A DNA stretch of 8,442 bases from an uncultured Oscillospiraceae bacterium (lineage in GTDB: Bacteria > Bacillota > Clostridia > Oscillospirales > Oscillospiraceae), in the NCBI GenBank assembly GCA_934630985.1, contig CAKTXO010000056.1, positions 1-8,442 of the forward strand, written 5' to 3'. The notes below the pieces were generated by a model. That model was not told the origin of the DNA. It saw only the letters and a list, made by a program, of their open reading frames with translations, and did not search any database. This document shows, one piece after another, positions 1,434-8,442 of this stretch. Positions within the stretch are counted from its first letter, which is position 1, and every line of letters starts with the position of its first letter. The position numbers and the translations under genes were made by a program.

Positions 1434-2537
1434 TTATTGTCCGCCGCTGCGGTACTTATAATCCCAATCCAAATCGAACAGCTTGTTTCCCTGAACCATG
1501 GGGCAGCCGGTGTCCATATCGTCCGCCAGCTCCCGAAGGGTATCCGCCGGTTCCAGGCACTCGATATAAAATTCCGGCAGAGCCTCTTCTCCCAGCCGCA
1601 GACCCAGGATGGCTCCCACCAGAGCCCCCACCGCCGCGCTGCGCCCGGAGTGATTCACCGCCACGATCATGGCCCGGTCGAAATCGTTCTCCGCAATCAG
1701 ACAGGTATACACGGCTCCTGCCAGCACCTGAGCCGCGTTTTCGCATTTCAGCTGCTCCATGACCTCCACCGGCCGGATATCCGGGGCGGAGGCGTAGGTC
1801 ACAGCGTGGCGAACCAGGGTGGCAATGTCAAAGGCCTGGGAATACTGGTGGCCGAACTGATCCTTCATGGCATCCACCGCGGCCAGAAACACCTTTTTCA
1901 GCGGCGCGCCGGGGTGGCGGATCAGCAGGCTAATGATGTGGGTCAGCACCGTGCCCGTCAGGAAGGCCGTAGGGCTTCCGTGGGTCAGGGCTACCGCCTC
2001 CGCTCCCAGCCGGGCCATTTCCCGCCAGTCCATCCGATCCTTGTGGTAAAAAAGCCCCACGCCGATGGCGGCGGTCAGTCCCGCCGGGTCGGAGAAGTTA
2101 TTCACCGGGCTTTCCAGGGAATTGGGAGCCTCCCGGCTCAGGGTGTCCAGCATCCGGGTGTCCATGCAGTGCCGGCGGCACAGATCGGGTCGACGGAGCA
2201 GCCAGCAGTAGCAGCTTTTCGGCCGCCCCCAGGAACGCTGGGAGGCCGCCCATTCCCGGCTGCTCATTTCGATATACTTGATGTAGGGAGCCATTTTCCC
2301 GCTGAGCTGCCCCCGGGTCATGCCGAAGAGCAGGCCGTTGCAGGTGAAGGCCGCCAGCTGGGTATAGGAGGTCACGTCCGCATAGCCGTTGACCAGGTCA
2401 TAGCCAAGAAGTCCGTTGGGGCCGTAGTCTTCCCGGATTTCCTGCCAGCTTCGGTTGTCCACGGTATAGCCCATGGCATCCCCCACCGCCAGACCCAGTA
2501 AACAGCCCCGATAGGCCGATTGCCGACTTGCAGCCAT
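1434..2537 (-). CDS. ADP-ribosylglycohydrolase-fold protein lacking the metal-binding aspartates
   Basis: The 367-residue product opens with RGCLLGLAVGDAMG (residues 10-23), the N-terminal signature of the ADP-ribosylglycohydrolase (DraG/ARH) family. It also has the conserved THGSP motif and a C-terminal NHSG..AVGALVGAILG block. Family members remove ADP-ribose from proteins or nucleic acids using two Mg2+ ions held by TDDT and GDxDT motifs. Here the first reads TSYT (residues 56-59) and the second reads GRSAA (298-302), so none of the usual metal-ligand aspartates remains. A normal hydrolase reaction is therefore doubtful; a binding role or changed chemistry is possible. The ATG at 2535-2537 is chosen because AAAGGGGG sits 7 bases upstream and a sigma-A promoter lies just before it. 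A longer reading from TTG at 2597 would begin inside the -35 box. The gene follows the MocR-type gene on the same strand but has its own promoter. Confidence 0.87.
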   Translation of the reverse strand: MAASRQSAYRGCLLGLAVGDAMGYTVDNRSWQEIREDYGPNGLLGYDLVNGYADVTSYTQLAAFTCNGLLFGMTRGQLSGKMAPYIKYIEMSSREWAASQRSWGRPKSCYCWLLRRPDLCRRHCMDTRMLDTLSREAPNSLESPVNNFSDPAGLTAAIGVGLFYHKDRMDWREMARLGAEAVALTHGSPTAFLTGTVLTHIISLLIRHPGAPLKKVFLAAVDAMKDQFGHQYSQAFDIATLVRHAVTYASAPDIRPVEVMEQLKCENAAQVLAGAVYTCLIAENDFDRAMIVAVNHSGRSAAVGALVGAILGLRLGEEALPEFYIECLEPADTLRELADDMDTGCPMVQGNKLFDLDWDYKYRSGGQ

Positions 2538-2568
2538 GCTTTTTCCCCCTTTCCCCGCCTTTTTTTCT

Positions 2569-2597
2569 ATTATACCTGTTTCGCCGAAAAAAGGCAA
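2569..2597 (-). promoter_or_regulatory. Sigma-A promoter of the ADP-ribosylglycohydrolase-like gene
   Basis: Reading the minus strand, TTGCCT (2592-2597) is followed by a 17-base spacer and a perfect TATAAT (2569-2574). Transcription should start near 2562, leaving a leader of about 25 bases that carries the AAAGGGGG ribosome binding site. The promoter lies in the 74-bp gap after the MocR-type gene, so this gene can be expressed apart from the thiN unit. Confidence 0.8.
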
Positions 2598-2611
2598 GGG
2601 GAAGAATCTGT

Positions 2612-3982
2612 TCAGGGCTCCATCCGATTCTCTATGGCCTTCAAAGCCTTTCTCAGGTCTTCCTCCTGAATGCCGGAGTAGTTGACCACCAGATACCCTT
2701 GCTGGGCTGTGCCCTCCTGATAGAATTCGCTCAGTGCCCGCACCCGGATCCCCGCCTGGGCCAGCCGGGCAGTCAGCTCCCCGTCGGACAGGGGCGTATC
2801 CACCCGCAGAAGGAAATGCAGCCCCGCGTCCTGCTCCAAAATGGTGAGCTTCTCCGAAAAGGCGCAGTGCCTGAGCAGGGAAATTACCGTGTTCCGGCGG
2901 CTTTTGTAGGATTTTCGCATCCGGTTGATGTGCTTTTCAAAATACCCCCGGTCGAGAAACCGAGCCAGGGTATACTGCTCGAAGGAGGGCACGGTGCAGC
3001 TGTAAAAACCCAGCTGCTTCTGAAAGACACGCATCAGCTCTCCGGGCAGCACCATATAGCTGATACGGATGGAGGGAGCCAGGGTTTTGGTGAAGGTGTT
3101 CATGTAGATCACCCGCCCCCGGCCGTCCAAAGCCTGCATGGCAGGCACCGGATGGGCATCGAACCGGAATTCCGAGTCGTAGTCGTCTTCGATAATCCAC
3201 TTGTCCGTCCCGGCCCAGTCAAGCAGCTCCAGCCGCCGGTTCACCGGAGTCACCAGCCCCGTGGGGTAGTGGTGGGAAGGGGAGCAGTGGAGCACCTGGG
3301 CACGTTCCAGGCTCTCCGGGATCACCCCCAGACTGTCCAGATAGGCGCTGACGCACCGGACACCGCCGGCGGCGTAGATTTTCCGGATTTTGCCGTAGCC
3401 CGGCTCCTCCACGGCGTAGATTTTCTCCCGACCCAACAGCTGAATCAGCAGATTGTAGAGAAAATCCGTTCCCGCCCCCAGGATGATATCCTCCGGATCC
3501 ACCCGCATTCCCCGGAACTGCCCTAAGTGCCGGGCGATGGCTCGGCGCAGCTCCGGAATTCCCCGGTTGGGCAGAGGGCGCAGAAGGGTCTGGCCGTAGT
3601 CCAGCATCACCTCCCGCTGAAGCTTCATCCACACGGAAAAGGGGAAGCCCTCGGTGCCGTTTTCCGTCAGATCCAGCAGCCAATCGGGACTGCTCTGCGC
3701 CGGAGCCGCCGGTTCCGAAGATACCTCCCGGGGTCGCCGCTCCACCTGCTCCACAAAGTAGCCCACCTTCTCCCGGGCATACAGGTAGCCCTCGGAGAGA
3801 AGCTGATTATAGGCGGTCTCCACGGTGATTTTGCTGACCTCAAGATTCTGAGCCAGGGCCCGCTTGGAGGGCAGCTTTTCCCCGGGTGCCAGCTTCCCGG
3901 TGAGAATGTCCTCCCGGAGGCACCGGTACAGAGCCTCGTACAGGGGCACGCCCGGGGCTTTTTTCAGTTCATAGGTTACCAT
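2612..3982 (-). CDS. MocR/PdxR-type transcriptional regulator (GntR HTH fused to aminotransferase-like domain)
   Basis: The 456-residue length and two-domain layout fit the MocR family. Residues 12-78 form a GntR-type winged helix with the usual EKLPSKRALAQNLEVSKITVETAYNQL pattern broken into helix-turn-helix (about 36-62). A charged linker (80-100) leads to a fold-type I aminotransferase-like domain. In that domain, SHHYPTG (236-242), EDDYDSEFRF (265-274) and TFTKTLAPSIR with the probable PLP lysine at 299 are all intact. The family senses PLP or an amine/amino-acid aldimine and controls vitamin B6, GABA, taurine or transport genes; the target here is unknown. The ATG at 3980-3982 is preferred over GTG at 4013-4015. 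It has GAGG 6 bases upstream and begins 8 bases after the thiN stop, whereas the GTG start would overlap thiN. Co-transcription and translational coupling with thiN are likely. Confidence 0.9.
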   Translation of the reverse strand: MVTYELKKAPGVPLYEALYRCLREDILTGKLAPGEKLPSKRALAQNLEVSKITVETAYNQLLSEGYLYAREKVGYFVEQVERRPREVSSEPAAPAQSSPDWLLDLTENGTEGFPFSVWMKLQREVMLDYGQTLLRPLPNRGIPELRRAIARHLGQFRGMRVDPEDIILGAGTDFLYNLLIQLLGREKIYAVEEPGYGKIRKIYAAGGVRCVSAYLDSLGVIPESLERAQVLHCSPSHHYPTGLVTPVNRRLELLDWAGTDKWIIEDDYDSEFRFDAHPVPAMQALDGRGRVIYMNTFTKTLAPSIRISYMVLPGELMRVFQKQLGFYSCTVPSFEQYTLARFLDRGYFEKHINRMRKSYKSRRNTVISLLRHCAFSEKLTILEQDAGLHFLLRVDTPLSDGELTARLAQAGIRVRALSEFYQEGTAQQGYLVVNYSGIQEEDLRKALKAIENRMEP

Positions 3983-3990
3983 AACATGCC

Positions 3991-4623
3991 TCAATTTCGG
4001 GTGGGAAAGCCGCACTTTCGCTCCCAGAGCACCAGCAGGCTGCCGTCTTTCACTTCGATTTCCGCTTTCTCCCCGGTAAAGTGGTTGCTCACCCCCAGAG
4101 GAAAGCCGCTGGTCAGCGTCCCGTTTTCCAGCTTGTAGAACAGTCCCCGCTCGGTAACGCCCCGGGCGTCAGCGCCCATGCAGAAGACGGAAATCGTTCC
4201 CGTCTTTCCGGCGGGGAAGGTGATTTTTCCGTTCTTCACCACCGTAACCAGGGTGGTATTGCCTACCAGATACCCGGTTGCCCCGCGGTCTGCCAGATAT
4301 TGCAGGGTCTGGAAATTCGCCACCGTGTGGTCAAGCCGGGGGCCGTCCAGGCTGCCGTAGAGCAAAAACTCCGTGCAGCCCTCTTTCAGCCCCAGCCGGA
4401 CGGCCAGCATGGAATCGGTATCGTCCTTCTCCACCGGGAACACGTTGGCTCCCTGGGGGGTATAGCCCAGGGAATCAAAGTCCCCCAGCACCACATCCGG
4501 GTGGAGCCCCAGAGCCTGGGTATGCCGCAGGCCTCCGTCCGCCGCGATGACCAGCGTTCCCTCTGCTATGGGTCGGGCCAGTCCCGCAAAATCCGCCGCG
4601 CAGAAAATCACGCATTCTCTCAT
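3991..4623 (-). CDS. thiN: Thiamine diphosphokinase
   Basis: This 210-residue protein carries the thiamine pyrophosphokinase signatures in order: AADGGL (27-32), GDFDS (47-51), KDDTDS (66-71), RLDHTVAN (96-103) and GVSN near the C-terminus. It transfers pyrophosphate from ATP to thiamine, giving the active cofactor thiamine diphosphate in the cytoplasm. The acidic clusters bind Mg-ATP. The ATG at 4621-4623 is chosen because AGGAGG lies 8 bases upstream; a GTG at 4630-4632 would fall within that ribosome binding site. It is the first gene of a minus-strand unit with the MocR-type regulator, whose start lies 8 bases past its stop. The usual GG-x-GGRLDH motif is slightly altered to GSLDGPRLDH. 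Only about 30 bases separate the likely promoter from the start, so there is no room for a TPP riboswitch. Confidence 0.93.
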   Translation of the reverse strand: MRECVIFCAADFAGLARPIAEGTLVIAADGGLRHTQALGLHPDVVLGDFDSLGYTPQGANVFPVEKDDTDSMLAVRLGLKEGCTEFLLYGSLDGPRLDHTVANFQTLQYLADRGATGYLVGNTTLVTVVKNGKITFPAGKTGTISVFCMGADARGVTERGLFYKLENGTLTSGFPLGVSNHFTGEKAEIEVKDGSLLVLWERKCGFPTRN

Positions 4624-6102: not shown

Positions 6103-6247
6103 TGGAGCAGGGTACGGGAATCGATTGCCGATTTGCCGGAGCAAATCGTAAGGAGCAAGTGCCATCCAGCTGGCACTTGGCAAATGTCCACCGGACATTT
6201 GCATTTTGATCGGTTCGATTCCCGTTCTGCTTTTTCCGCAAGAAAAG
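6103..6247. repeat. Full copy of tRNA-3'-end-bounded multi-hairpin repeat
   Basis: The left end (6103-6124) is identical over 22 bases to the 3' end of the intact tRNA-Gly. The right end (6213-6230) holds an inverted T-arm, GGTTCGATTCCCGTTCTGC. Between them lie three strong hairpins: 6129-6136 with 6141-6148, 6156-6163 with 6172-6179, and 6180-6189 with 6193-6202 (perfect 10 bp). Short reading frames through it are spurious. The unit recurs in shortened form at 5556-5609. Confidence 0.72.
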
Positions 6248-6276
6248 AGCACCCCAAGTGGGGTGCTCTTTTCTTG
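6239..6276 (-). terminator. Terminator of tRNA-Gly
   Basis: A perfect 17-bp inverted repeat (6239-6255 with 6260-6276) and a 4-base loop lie directly after the tRNA. The central stem GAGCACCCC/GGGGTGCTC is GC-rich and is followed by TTTTCTT in either direction. It therefore terminates minus-strand tRNA transcription and could block plus-strand readthrough as well. Confidence 0.88.
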
Positions 6277-6278
6277 TA

Positions 6279-6352
6279 TGGAGCAGGGTACGGGAATCGA
6301 ACCCGCCTCTGTGGCTTGGGAAGCGACCGTTCTACCGATGAACTAACCCTGC
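6279..6352 (-). tRNA. tRNA-Gly (anticodon CCC)
   Basis: On the minus strand the 74 bases fold as a complete tRNA. Acceptor GCAGGGT pairs with ACCCTGC, D-arm GTTC/GAAC encloses ATCGGTA, and the anticodon stem GTCGC/GCCAC (one mismatch) holds loop TTCCCAA with anticodon CCC. T-arm CGGG/CCCG encloses TTCGATT. The discriminator base is T, as expected for bacterial tRNA-Gly, and CCA is encoded. It reads the GGG codon. It lies 66 bp after mgtE on the same strand but has its own promoter and terminator. Confidence 0.95.
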
Positions 6353-6418: not shown

Positions 6419-7798
6419 TTACAGTCCCAGAATGGACTTGGCGAACATGAAGTACACCAGAAGGCTCAGGGCATCCACAATGGTGGTGATGAAAGGCGAA
6501 GCCATCACCGCCGGGTCAAAGCCCAGACGCTTGGCAAGCAGAGGCAGGGTGCAGCCCACGAACTTGGCCATAATCACCGTCACCCCCAGGGTCAGGCTCA
6601 CGACCCCCGCCACCAGCAGGCTGATGCTGGCGTTGCCCATGAGCATCCGATCCACCACCAGCACCTTCACGAAGCACAGTGCCGCCAGGGTAACGCCGCA
6701 GAGAATGGCCGTCTGGAGCTCCTTCCACATGACCCGGAAAATATCCTCGAATTTCAGCTCATCCAGGCTCAGGGAACGGATCACCGTCACGGAGGACTGG
6801 GAGCCGCAGTTACCGCCGGTGTCCATCAGCATGGGGATAAAGGCGGTCAGGGCAGGCAGCAGCGCCAGGGCGCTTTCAAAGGACGAAATAATCATTCCCG
6901 TGAAGGTTGCCGACACCATCAGCAGCATCAGCCAGGGAATCCGGTGCTTGTACAGATCAAAAGGCGAGCTCTTCAGATAGGTCTTCTCGGAAGGCGTCAT
7001 AGCCGCCATGATCTCCATATCCTCGGTAGCCTCTTCTTCCATGACGTCCATGGCGTCATCGAAGGTGACGATACCCACCATCCGGTGCTCCCCGTCCACC
7101 ACGGGCAGAGCCAGGAAGTTGTACTTGCTGAACATCCGGGCCACTTCCTCCTGGTCGGTCTGGGTGGTGACGCAGATCAGGTTGGTGATCATCAGCTCTT
7201 CAATTTTATCGTCGTCATCCTCCGCCAGAAGCAGATCCTTCACGGTGACAATGCCCAGGAGCTTCCGGTCATTGGCGGTGACGTAGCAGGTGTAAATGGT
7301 CTCCTTGTCCACGCCCTGCCGGCGAATCCGCAGGATGGCCTCGCCCACGGTCATTTCCGGCCGCAGGGAGACGTACTCCGTGGTCATAATGGAACCGGCG
7401 GAGTTTTCGGGATAGCGCAGGATCTGGTTGATAGAGTGGCGCATTTCCGGGTCAGCGTGACGAAGAATCCGGCGCACCACGTTGGCGGGCATTTCCTCCA
7501 CGATATCCGCCGCGTCGTCCACATACAGTTCGTCCAGGACTTCCTTCAGCTCGTTGTCGGAGAAGCTGCGGATCAGCAGCTCCTGAGCCTCCGGCTCCAT
7601 CTCTACAAAAGTTTCCGCCGCCAGCTCCTTGGGGAGCAGCCGGAACATCAGCGGAATCTGCTTTTCCTCCAGACAGTCAAACAGTCCCGCCACGTCGCTG
7701 GGATTCATGGTCACGAGAATGTCCCGCAAAGTCGGGTACTTCTTCTCCTCCAGCATGGTAAGGACTGCTTTTTCTACAATTTCAAAACGTTCAGCCAT
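6419..7798 (-). CDS. mgtE: Magnesium transporter MgtE
   Basis: The 459-residue length and layout match MgtE Mg2+ channels. An acidic, helical N-domain spans roughly residues 10-130. A CBS pair follows (about 136-255, opening with GSIMTTEYVSL and containing LGIVTVKDLL and VGIVTFDDAMDV). A five-helix membrane domain runs from about 286 to the end. The pore signature PMLMDTGGNCGSQSSV is at 322-337, and the last helix has FITTIVDALSL with Asp 442, which corresponds to the conserved pore aspartate. In the family the cytosolic domains bind Mg2+ and close the dimeric pore when Mg2+ is plentiful. The ATG at 7796-7798 has AGGAGG six bases upstream. The leader is unusual: a 23-codon ORF plus hairpins, one covering this ribosome binding site, so translation is likely regulated. 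The gene is followed by tRNA-Gly with its own promoter. Confidence 0.96.
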   Translation of the reverse strand: MAERFEIVEKAVLTMLEEKKYPTLRDILVTMNPSDVAGLFDCLEEKQIPLMFRLLPKELAAETFVEMEPEAQELLIRSFSDNELKEVLDELYVDDAADIVEEMPANVVRRILRHADPEMRHSINQILRYPENSAGSIMTTEYVSLRPEMTVGEAILRIRRQGVDKETIYTCYVTANDRKLLGIVTVKDLLLAEDDDDKIEELMITNLICVTTQTDQEEVARMFSKYNFLALPVVDGEHRMVGIVTFDDAMDVMEEEATEDMEIMAAMTPSEKTYLKSSPFDLYKHRIPWLMLLMVSATFTGMIISSFESALALLPALTAFIPMLMDTGGNCGSQSSVTVIRSLSLDELKFEDIFRVMWKELQTAILCGVTLAALCFVKVLVVDRMLMGNASISLLVAGVVSLTLGVTVIMAKFVGCTLPLLAKRLGFDPAVMASPFITTIVDALSLLVYFMFAKSILGL

Positions 7799-7804
7799 GA
7801 TTTC

Positions 7805-7835
7805 CCTCCTATTTTCCGATTTTGAGAATAAGAGG
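7805..7835 (-). promoter_or_regulatory. Hairpin sequestering the mgtE ribosome binding site
   Basis: In the mgtE leader RNA, CCUCUUAUU (plus-strand 7827-7835) can pair along all nine bases with AAUAGGAGG (7805-7813), with one G-U pair and a 13-base loop. The second strand contains the complete AGGAGG of mgtE. The helix lies 7-37 bases upstream of the start codon. Its outermost 2 bases (7834-7835) are shared with the base of the larger stem at 7834-7902, so the two structures touch or compete. Pairing is seen in the sequence; regulation is inferred. Confidence 0.6.
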
Positions 7836-7902
7836 CAATGTATCTGATCTACGCAAGAAGGCTCACCAGGGAGCCCGCGCTACTTCGACCAGGTATATTG
7901 CC
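7834..7902 (-). promoter_or_regulatory. Leader stem spanning the small ORF and its stop codon
   Basis: The leader segments 7887-7902 and 7834-7849 pair over 16 positions: 13 Watson-Crick, one G-U and two A-C mismatches. An inner hairpin GGCUC/GAGCC (7871-7875 with 7860-7864) has a 6-base loop. The 5' strand is coding sequence of the small ORF and the 3' strand starts at its stop codon. A translating ribosome would therefore melt the structure. Confidence 0.55.
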
Positions 7903-7920
7903 ACTGCCGCCAGCGTCCAT
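7849..7920 (-). CDS. 23-residue leader peptide upstream of mgtE
   Basis: ATG at 7918-7920 has AAGGAGGT (7927-7934) 6 bases upstream, one of the strongest ribosome binding sites in the window. The ORF ends at TAG (7849-7851) after 23 codons. The peptide is rich in Gly, Ser and Leu, starts MDAGGSGN, has Pro at position 10, GRSSAG at 11-16 and ends SLVSLLA. It is too short and not hydrophobic enough for a membrane helix. Start codon, ribosome binding site and upstream promoter are all well placed, and the ORF ends 50 bases before mgtE. I read it as a translated leader controlling mgtE, comparable in concept to the mgtL leader peptide of enterobacteria, with no sequence similarity claimed. It includes AUA and CGA codons that look uncommon in the neighbouring genes. 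Confidence 0.68.
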   Translation of the reverse strand: MDAGGSGNIPGRSSAGSLVSLLA

Positions 7921-7952
7921 GGTGGTACCTCCTTCATAAAATATTCACTCTT

Positions 7953-7981
7953 ATTCTACCCATTCAAGTGCTAAATGTCAA
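7953..7981 (-). promoter_or_regulatory. Promoter of the mgtE leader and mgtE
   Basis: On the minus strand TTGACA (7976-7981), a 17-base spacer and TAGAAT (7953-7958) form a near-perfect sigma-A promoter. Transcription should begin near 7946, giving about 25 bases before the leader ORF and about 148 bases before mgtE. Its -35 is 2 bp from the -35 of the divergent acetyltransferase promoter. Confidence 0.83.
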
Positions 7982-7983
7982 CC

Positions 7984-8012
7984 TTGACGAAGGCTTTTTT
8001 GTGACGTAAAAT
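7984..8012 (+). promoter_or_regulatory. Promoter of the GNAT acetyltransferase gene
   Basis: TTGACG (7984-7989), a 17-base spacer and TAAAAT (8007-8012) give a good sigma-A promoter, with a start near 8019. The leader of about 50 bases can form either GAAGU/ACUUC (8013-8017 with 8028-8032) or GGGGC/GCCCC (8021-8025 with 8036-8040). These exclude each other; significance is unknown. Confidence 0.72.
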
Positions 8013-8068: not shown

Positions 8069-8442
8069 ATGCTGCGAATGGCTCAGGAAGCGGATCTTCC
8101 GGAAATGCTGGAAATCTACGCCCCCTATGTGCTGAACACCACCGTAAGCTTTGAGTACGCGCCCCCCTCCCCGGCGGAATTTCGCCGTCGGTTCACTGAG
8201 TACACCAGGCAGTTTCCCTGGCTGGTCTGGGAGGAAGGGAATCGGATCCTGGGCTACGCCTACGCCAGCGCCCCCTTCACCCGGAAGGCCTATCAGTGGT
8301 GCGCCGAGCCCACCATCTATCTGCGCCGGGAAGCCCAGGGCAAGGACATTGCCCGGAAGCTCTATGCCGTGCTGGAGGAAATTCTCTTTTCCCAGGGCTA
8401 TCAGGTGCTCTACAGCCTGGTCTGCGGGGAAAATATTCCCTC
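8069..8442 (+). CDS. GNAT N-acetyltransferase, phosphinothricin acetyltransferase (PAT/MnaT) type (3' end missing)
   Basis: 124 complete codons are visible and the frame runs off the window end; the family is usually about 165-180 residues, so roughly two thirds is present. The pattern is that of the PAT group. It has an opening MLRMAQEADLPEMLEIY, then VLNTTVSFEY (21-30), PWLV (50-53), GYAYASPF-like GYAYASAPF (62-70), AYQWCAEPTIYL with the conserved Glu 80, and the acetyl-CoA loop QGKDIARKLY (90-99). The loop has Asp 93 where a Gly is usual. Such enzymes acetylate amino groups of small molecules, including methionine sulfone/sulfoximine or phosphinothricin-like compounds; the physiological substrate here is unknown. 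The ATG at 8069 is chosen because it gives the usual N-terminal length and has GTGAGG 8 bases upstream, a weaker site than those nearby. The gene is divergent from mgtE. Confidence 0.88.
   Translation, partial: MLRMAQEADLPEMLEIYAPYVLNTTVSFEYAPPSPAEFRRRFTEYTRQFPWLVWEEGNRILGYAYASAPFTRKAYQWCAEPTIYLRREAQGKDIARKLYAVLEEILFSQGYQVLYSLVCGENIP

Follow-up and report, generated by a model that had tools for sequence, protein, structure and literature searches.

Short translated leaders control Mg2+ transporter genes in enterobacteria, where mgtL, mgtM, mgtP and mgtQ have been described (PMC8092293, PMC11282234). As described for the Salmonella mgtCBRU operon (PMC8092293), mgtQ encodes 8 aa and lies inside the operon; its Asp2 and Glu5 are reported to be required and to destabilise ribosomes, its region 1 pairs with region 2, and stem 2:3 frees the mgtB ribosome binding site. 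The mgtL leader of E. coli and Salmonella mgtA is described as encoding a peptide that is incompletely translated at low Mg2+, which turns the transporter on, and it uses a Rho-dependent terminator (PMC11282234). Two other systems are comparable at the level of their published descriptions. In Mycobacterium tuberculosis, the conserved small uORF2 lies in a Mg2+-related leader with an SD/anti-SD/anti-anti-SD logic, but at the pe20 and rv1535 loci an M-box controls it, and its peptide is mycobacteria-specific according to the authors (PMC12810186). The Thioalkalivibrio mgtE motif is a structured RNA whose model also spans the mgtE Shine-Dalgarno (SD) sequence and start codon, but it is a riboswitch candidate rather than a uORF and is reported from Thioalkalivibrio exclusively (PMC11109978). 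No description of the Clostridia mgtE leader ORF considered here was found in the open-licence literature, in agreement with the original prediction, which knew of no counterpart.

The window (the whole stretch of DNA analyzed, 8,442 nucleotides from an uncultured Oscillospiraceae bacterium) carries this leader on its minus strand (Table 1). The original prediction had described a near-perfect promoter, a strong and well-spaced SD site, and a 23-codon ORF ending 50 nt ahead of a Mg2+ transporter gene, and all of these were recovered at the same positions when the window was rechecked. The transporter gene is mgtE (TIGR00400; 468.9 bits, cut-off 232.75). The promoter is of the sigma-70 type with 11 of 12 matches; two sites with at least 9 of 12 lie between positions 7000 and 8442, against 0.8 expected from shuffled sequence, and a promoter-like match is present in 48 of the 57 non-redundant leaders that have enough upstream sequence, mostly 31–60 nt 5′ of the leader ATG. 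An overlapping 24-aa ORF (7937–7863) was rejected as the leader: it has no SD before it, its own start precedes the leader SD, and its ATG is unique to the window, being absent from the other 32 of 33 rows of alignment A1. In the region 7976–8012 the leader −35 hexamer sits inside the palindrome GTCAAGGTTGAC, which is found in 18 of the 57 leaders (the window included), all of the window's group; a second promoter-like site on the plus strand (TTGACG at 7984, TAAAAT to 8012) is directed at an acetyltransferase-like gene at 8069. The palindrome with its divergent promoter-like sites is possibly a bidirectional promoter or an operator.

Table 1. Positions in the window of the leader, its promoter, the mgtE gene and the arms of the predicted helices S1, P1 and H3
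Feature	Position	Strand	Basis or remark
-35 hexamer TTGACA	7976..7981	(-)	promoter match
-10 hexamer TAGAAT	7953..7958	(-)	17-nt spacer from -35
Leader Shine-Dalgarno AAGGAGGT	7927..7934	(-)	6 nt ahead of ATG 7920
S1 5′ arm: leader SD, start codon, codons 2-3	7912..7934	(-)	duplex prediction, own-versus-foreign test
Leader ORF, 23 codons, MDAGGSGNIPGRSSAGSLVSLLA	7849..7920	(-)	codons 2-14 conserved as peptide, 15-22 not
P1 5′ arm: ORF codons 6-12 (from codon 4 in most relatives)	7887..7905	(-)	duplex prediction, own-versus-foreign test
S1 3′ arm: ORF C-terminal half, would close leader SD	7855..7875	(-)	duplex prediction, own-versus-foreign test
P1 3′ arm: stop codon to anti-SD, last nt common to H3	7831..7849	(-)	duplex prediction
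H3 5′ arm: anti-SD	7824..7835	(-)	duplex prediction
H3 3′ arm, holds mgtE SD GGAGG (7809-7805)	7805..7816	(-)	duplex prediction
mgtE, MgtE-type magnesium transporter, 459 aa	6419..7798	(-)	TIGR00400

The arrangement of mgtQ and mgtL, in which a short ORF with an SD of its own precedes a Mg2+ transporter gene, recurs well beyond the window. From 417 confirmed mgtE loci the best 80 were chosen on MgtE protein similarity alone; one (L038) begins inside the gene, which leaves 79 testable loci, and the leader is present in 74 of these. Seventy-two were found by a regular expression (an SD, then a start codon followed by [DEP]-[ATSD]-[GED]) and two, L059 and L077, were added by eye. Among the five leaderless loci, L076, L079 and L080 have an M-box (RF00380, the ykoK leader) holding the same place before mgtE, and by eye mgtE follows the end of an MgtE-like gene in L075 and another gene in L046. 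The leaders range from 20 to 41 codons and are spread over many Clostridia and some spirochaetes (L049, L052–L056, L059 and the Treponema berlinense locus L067); one carrier, Evtepia gabavorous (L074), is cultured. L019 and L084, by length and number the same 20,406-base contig, belong to a genome bin with two mgtE genes, each of which has a separate leader.

Searches that started from the leader lead back to Mg2+ transporters. A pattern scan of 200 genomes of the family gave matches in 50 genomes, and 28 of the 39 loci examined (30 from the scan output and 9 picked by eye) precede a Mg2+ transporter gene; 27 of these are mgtE and one, L125, is a P-type Mg2+-ATPase (TIGR01524, 526 bits on a fragment, below a cut-off of 610.75 that applies to the whole protein), and the remaining 11 loci have none. 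A stricter pattern matched 5 times in 391 genomes of the class, against one match with the reversed pattern, and all five lie before mgtE. Finally, a model (R1) derived from the starts of 52 leaders (51 mgtE and 1 mgtA), with neither structure nor any transporter sequence in it, matches at E≤0.01 in 39 of 391 clostridial genomes. Of 30 fetched R1 loci, 28 adjoin a Mg2+ transporter gene, 26 of them mgtE and two mgtA (L178 and L183; L125 from the pattern scan is a third mgtA case); of the other two, L191 is cut off by the end of its contig and L194 (E 0.0017) lacks a transporter gene. Ten further matches lie outside the 30, and L165, L167, L173 and L180–L182 repeat earlier loci. These counts, with those from the best 80 of 417 loci, bear out the leader ORF as real rather than a product of chance. 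Short ORFs are common, so one might in principle arise by chance in a 5′ UTR; the transporter association, together with the conservation, frame keeping and covariation described below, refutes this, and its probability is practically nil.

The two halves of the leader ORF have evolved quite differently. Among 24 leaders of fixed length in the window's group, changes at the first, second and third codon positions number 227/200/1280 over codons 2–14 and 1230/1151/1169 over codons 15–21, counts in which the sequence pairs are not independent and the contrast between the halves is drawn within the same sequences. Pairwise peptide identity is 0.84 for codons 2–14 and 0.17 for codons 15–22. The synonymous bias that was expected within the ORF is thus present in codons 2–14 and missing from codons 15–21, and the expected conservation of the C-terminal half proved to be the reverse of what is found. 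The third-position bias suggests peptide-level selection on the N-terminal half and none on the C-terminal half; the SLVSLLA segment singled out by the original prediction is not conserved as a peptide, and its RNA is instead predicted to pair with the leader SD (in S1). Frameshifts or stop codons among relatives were also looked for, and the ORF withstood this: in 58 non-redundant leaders (the window included) the distance from the ATG to a GGNCGA or G[GA]NC[GA]A motif is 24, 27, 30, 33 or 36 nt, which is divisible by three in all 53 leaders that have the motif; the five that lack it are all spirochaetes. The arginine codon of the motif is CGA in 50 of 50 cases, and three more leaders encode Gln by CAA at that place. 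The AUA codon is invariant among the 24 leaders of fixed length in the window's group, so a role of these codons in ribosome speed is possible.

Codon 2 is acidic in 97 of 99 leaders (the exceptions are Asn2 in L177 and Pro2 in L067), a count that is partly biased because codon 2 is part of the regular expression, the patterns and the model that picked out the leaders. The spirochaete leaders start with [MV]EAG or MPDG, and in them DPDPVP or DSDPVP, which resembles the EPDP of MgtL (PMC11282234), replaces GRS, except in L067, which has PPP. Peptide-level constraint on codons 2–14 would also be expected if the ORF encoded a functional small protein with MgtE or something else as its target, in the way that MgtR and MgtU are described as acting on their partners (PMC8092293). 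The low identity and absent codon periodicity of the C-terminal half make this highly improbable, and only 2 of the 99 peptides contain a 15-residue stretch with a mean hydropathy above 1.6 (0.91 in the window).

Three predicted helices covary between the leaders of different species. From 111 leaders, 82 remained after removal of redundancy at 85 percent (L002, L003 and L061 were excluded beforehand), and two of these (L063 and L064) were dropped since they have no SD before the start derived from the protein match, which left 80. Predicted duplex energies of each leader's own segment pairs were compared with those of pairs swapped between leaders, after row and column centring and with permutation within four groups. 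S1, the leader SD region with the C-terminal coding half, averages −21.0 kcal/mol for own and −16.9 kcal/mol for foreign pairs (0 of 5000 permutations, z −13.2); P1, codons 4–16 with the post-stop strand, −27.3 against −24.6 kcal/mol (0/5000); and H3, the post-stop strand with the mgtE SD, −10.0 against −8.75 kcal/mol (0/5000). Five control segment pairs from the 80 leaders were null (1731 to 4403 of 5000). In the window's group alone (n = 30), S1 and H3 each reach 0/5000 and P1 is not significant (375/5000, and 561/5000 in another run), since the P1 5′ arm hardly varies there; in group g2b (n = 10) the values are 247 for P1, 105 for H3 and 0 for S1, each of 5000. A hold-out set of 17 leaders, from 22 new loci found by R1 (L168, L185 and L188 were excluded because the main start was not found, L171 for its short post-stop strand and L169 as redundant), gave 0 for P1, 0 for S1 and 205 for H3 of 10000; three of its four controls were null, and the C-terminal half against the post-stop strand was not (35/10000).

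The P1 3′ arm and the H3 5′ arm have nucleotides in common in 77 of the 80 leaders and in 16 of the 17 hold-out leaders. P1 would take the anti-SD nucleotides that H3 needs, so these two should be mutually exclusive, and since S1 crosses P1, S1 with H3 on the one hand and P1 on the other exclude each other. Covariation and shared nucleotides together indicate that the leader, like that of mgtQ, carries mutually exclusive predicted helices, one of which would close the transporter ribosome binding site. By eye, the anti-SD (e.g., UUACUUCC) has two possible partners in many relatives, one being the mgtE SD and the other ORF codons 4–6 (GGNAGUAGU), which resemble a copy of the SD inside the ORF. 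RNAalifold on a MAFFT alignment returned no consensus pairs, probably because the arms slide and exclude each other. The N of GGNCGAAG pairs with one fixed opposite base in 17 of 38 cases (114 of 20000 shuffles were as good), which is suggestive only, as the register of P1 varies. In L002 and L003 a hairpin-rich insertion of ∼140 nt lies between the H3 arms, both of which are intact by eye. The original prediction had included neither the predicted RNA switch nor the hairpin between anti-SD and mgtE SD, nor the presence of the same leader on mgtA.

Known RNA families do not account for the element. The M-box covariance model has no match at E≤1 in the window and none in five leader-bearing relatives, nor does any Rfam family match the leader there, and an M-box or other Rfam RNA was rejected as its identity. 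The M-box is absent from 34 of 36 leader-bearing genomes; in the other two, G335 (mgtE) and G461 (mgtA), it lies directly upstream of the leader. By eye, the order in G461 (L125/L160) is M-box, a terminator-like hairpin with a T run, leader ORF, anti-SD region and mgtA, apparently two stacked Mg2+ controls, and this genome has a second M-box elsewhere. A tendency of the two elements to avoid each other was considered as a statistic and set aside: M-boxes occur in 2 of the 28 genomes with the leader and in 32 of 172 others (which include any leaders the pattern missed), a difference that is not compelling.

The RNA might nonetheless itself sense the ion, as a direct Mg2+ riboswitch in which high Mg2+ stabilises S1 and H3 and the ORF is only a lever pulled by ribosomes. 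In its favor are the two exclusive folds, the predicted closing of the leader SD by S1, and the closeness of the two constrained folds, which differ by no more than 5 kcal/mol in 45 of the 80 leaders. Against it, the third-position bias of codons 2–14 is hard to explain if neither peptide nor codons matter, no fixed aptamer-like core is seen by eye outside the arms, whose sequences vary between groups, and Rfam gave no match in the window or the five relatives; on balance a riboswitch seems rather unlikely.

It is probable, on comparative grounds, that the leader is a translational attenuator for the Mg2+ transporter gene that follows, likely reporting Mg2+ through the ribosomes that translate the leader. 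This class of mechanism is well supported by comparison; we infer the response to Mg2+ and its ON/OFF sign, low Mg2+ being taken as the ON signal by analogy with mgtQ and MgtL. The resting state would be S1 with H3, in which the ribosome sites of the leader and of mgtE are both closed, and both would be open in the P1 state. At high Mg2+, ribosomes would traverse codons 4–16 to the stop and disrupt P1, so that H3 stays and mgtE is shut. At low Mg2+, ribosomes would initiate on the leader and stall or abort near the acidic second codon, keeping S1 open; the later codons would then be free for P1 to form, remove the anti-SD and open mgtE.

Folding calculations bear on this scheme in both directions. 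With pairs between the ORF and the post-stop strand disallowed, the best fold has a lower energy than with S1 and H3 pairs disallowed in 64 of the 80 leaders, in line with S1 and H3 as the resting state. The window is one of these 64, and there the fold that lacks S1 and H3 pairs is the weaker by 13 kcal/mol, which counts against attenuation. When a 28-nt ribosome footprint was masked along the ORF, the mean modelled opening of the mgtE SD (n = 80) was 0.20 without a ribosome, 0.22 and 0.19 with one at codons 1 and 2, and 0.11–0.12 at codons 4–16. It was also raised, to 0.24–0.27, at codons 22–27, which makes the sign proposed above tentative. In the window it is small everywhere, which again speaks against an attenuator: 0.00 without a ribosome, 0.14 and 0.19 at codons 1 and 2, 0.00 at codons 3–16 and 0.09 at codons 17–20. 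The modelling favors, without proving, that ribosomes held or aborted near the start would open mgtE and that those crossing codons 4–16 would close it.

The peak with ribosomes in the C-terminal half is instead what plain coupling might give, with constitutive leader translation opening H3, and the CGA of all 50 Arg cases and the AUA fixed in the window's group would suit a signal other than Mg2+, such as an amino acid or slow codons (CGA, AUA, Pro). Such an explanation is distinctly improbable: the leader is found ahead of genes for two unrelated families of Mg2+ transporter, the M-box replaces or adjoins it in some genomes, and by eye the far relatives L177, L183, L190 and L192 have lost GRS and CGA and keep a P1 duplex.

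The preferred attenuator also has to be set against the enterobacterial leaders. The best reading is that it would work like Salmonella mgtQ and mgtL, a likeness in mode of action. With mgtQ as described (PMC8092293) it has in common a short ORF ahead of the gene for a Mg2+ transporter, predicted alternative stem-loops that would free or hide the ribosome binding site of that gene, control at translation and an acidic codon 2. They differ in that mgtQ is found in enterobacteria, that the pairing within mgtQ is with region 2 and here the 3′ half of the ORF would close the leader SD, and that the transporter is MgtE or MgtA here, unlike in the mgtQ system. With mgtL (PMC11282234) the difference lies in the expression platform, which here is translational. 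The acidic second codon fits low Mg2+ as the ON signal. The scarcity of further early acidic residues does not, and it counts against attenuation: the sole acidic residue among the first ten is at codon 2 in 93 of the 99 leaders, and the clostridial leaders mostly have one such residue, fewer than the EPDP of MgtL or Asp2/Glu5 of MgtQ as these are described (PMC11282234, PMC8092293).

Judged from the comparisons, the element is a real leader ORF joined to a covarying, predicted RNA switch on Mg2+ transporter genes. The chances seem about even that Clostridia and spirochaetes have in it a new and widespread Mg2+ sensor, based on ribosomes and taking the place of the M-box, in which the N-terminal half senses as a peptide and the same codons, with the 3′ half, are arms of an RNA switch for both ribosome sites, fitted to the unrelated MgtE and MgtA. 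If so, its strong conservation in Clostridia and spirochaetes, its exchange with the M-box and its use with both transporters would point to translation-based reading of Mg2+ as a solution that either recurs or is far older; it would explain how Mg2+ uptake might be controlled in many of these bacteria that have no M-box, and would offer a compact system for asking how Mg2+ alters early elongation.

Directly 3′ of mgtE, on the same strand, lies a tRNA-Gly gene (anticodon CCC, 6279–6352). An imperfect inverted repeat with arms GAAAAGAGCACC and GGTGCTCTTTTC is present at 6219–6295 and nearby; it has a match to a miRNA model at E 0.038, far below that model's cut-off. The sequence KKRAPH.GC occurs twice in one frame near this repeat, and the pair together with the inverted repeat suggests short interspersed repeats.
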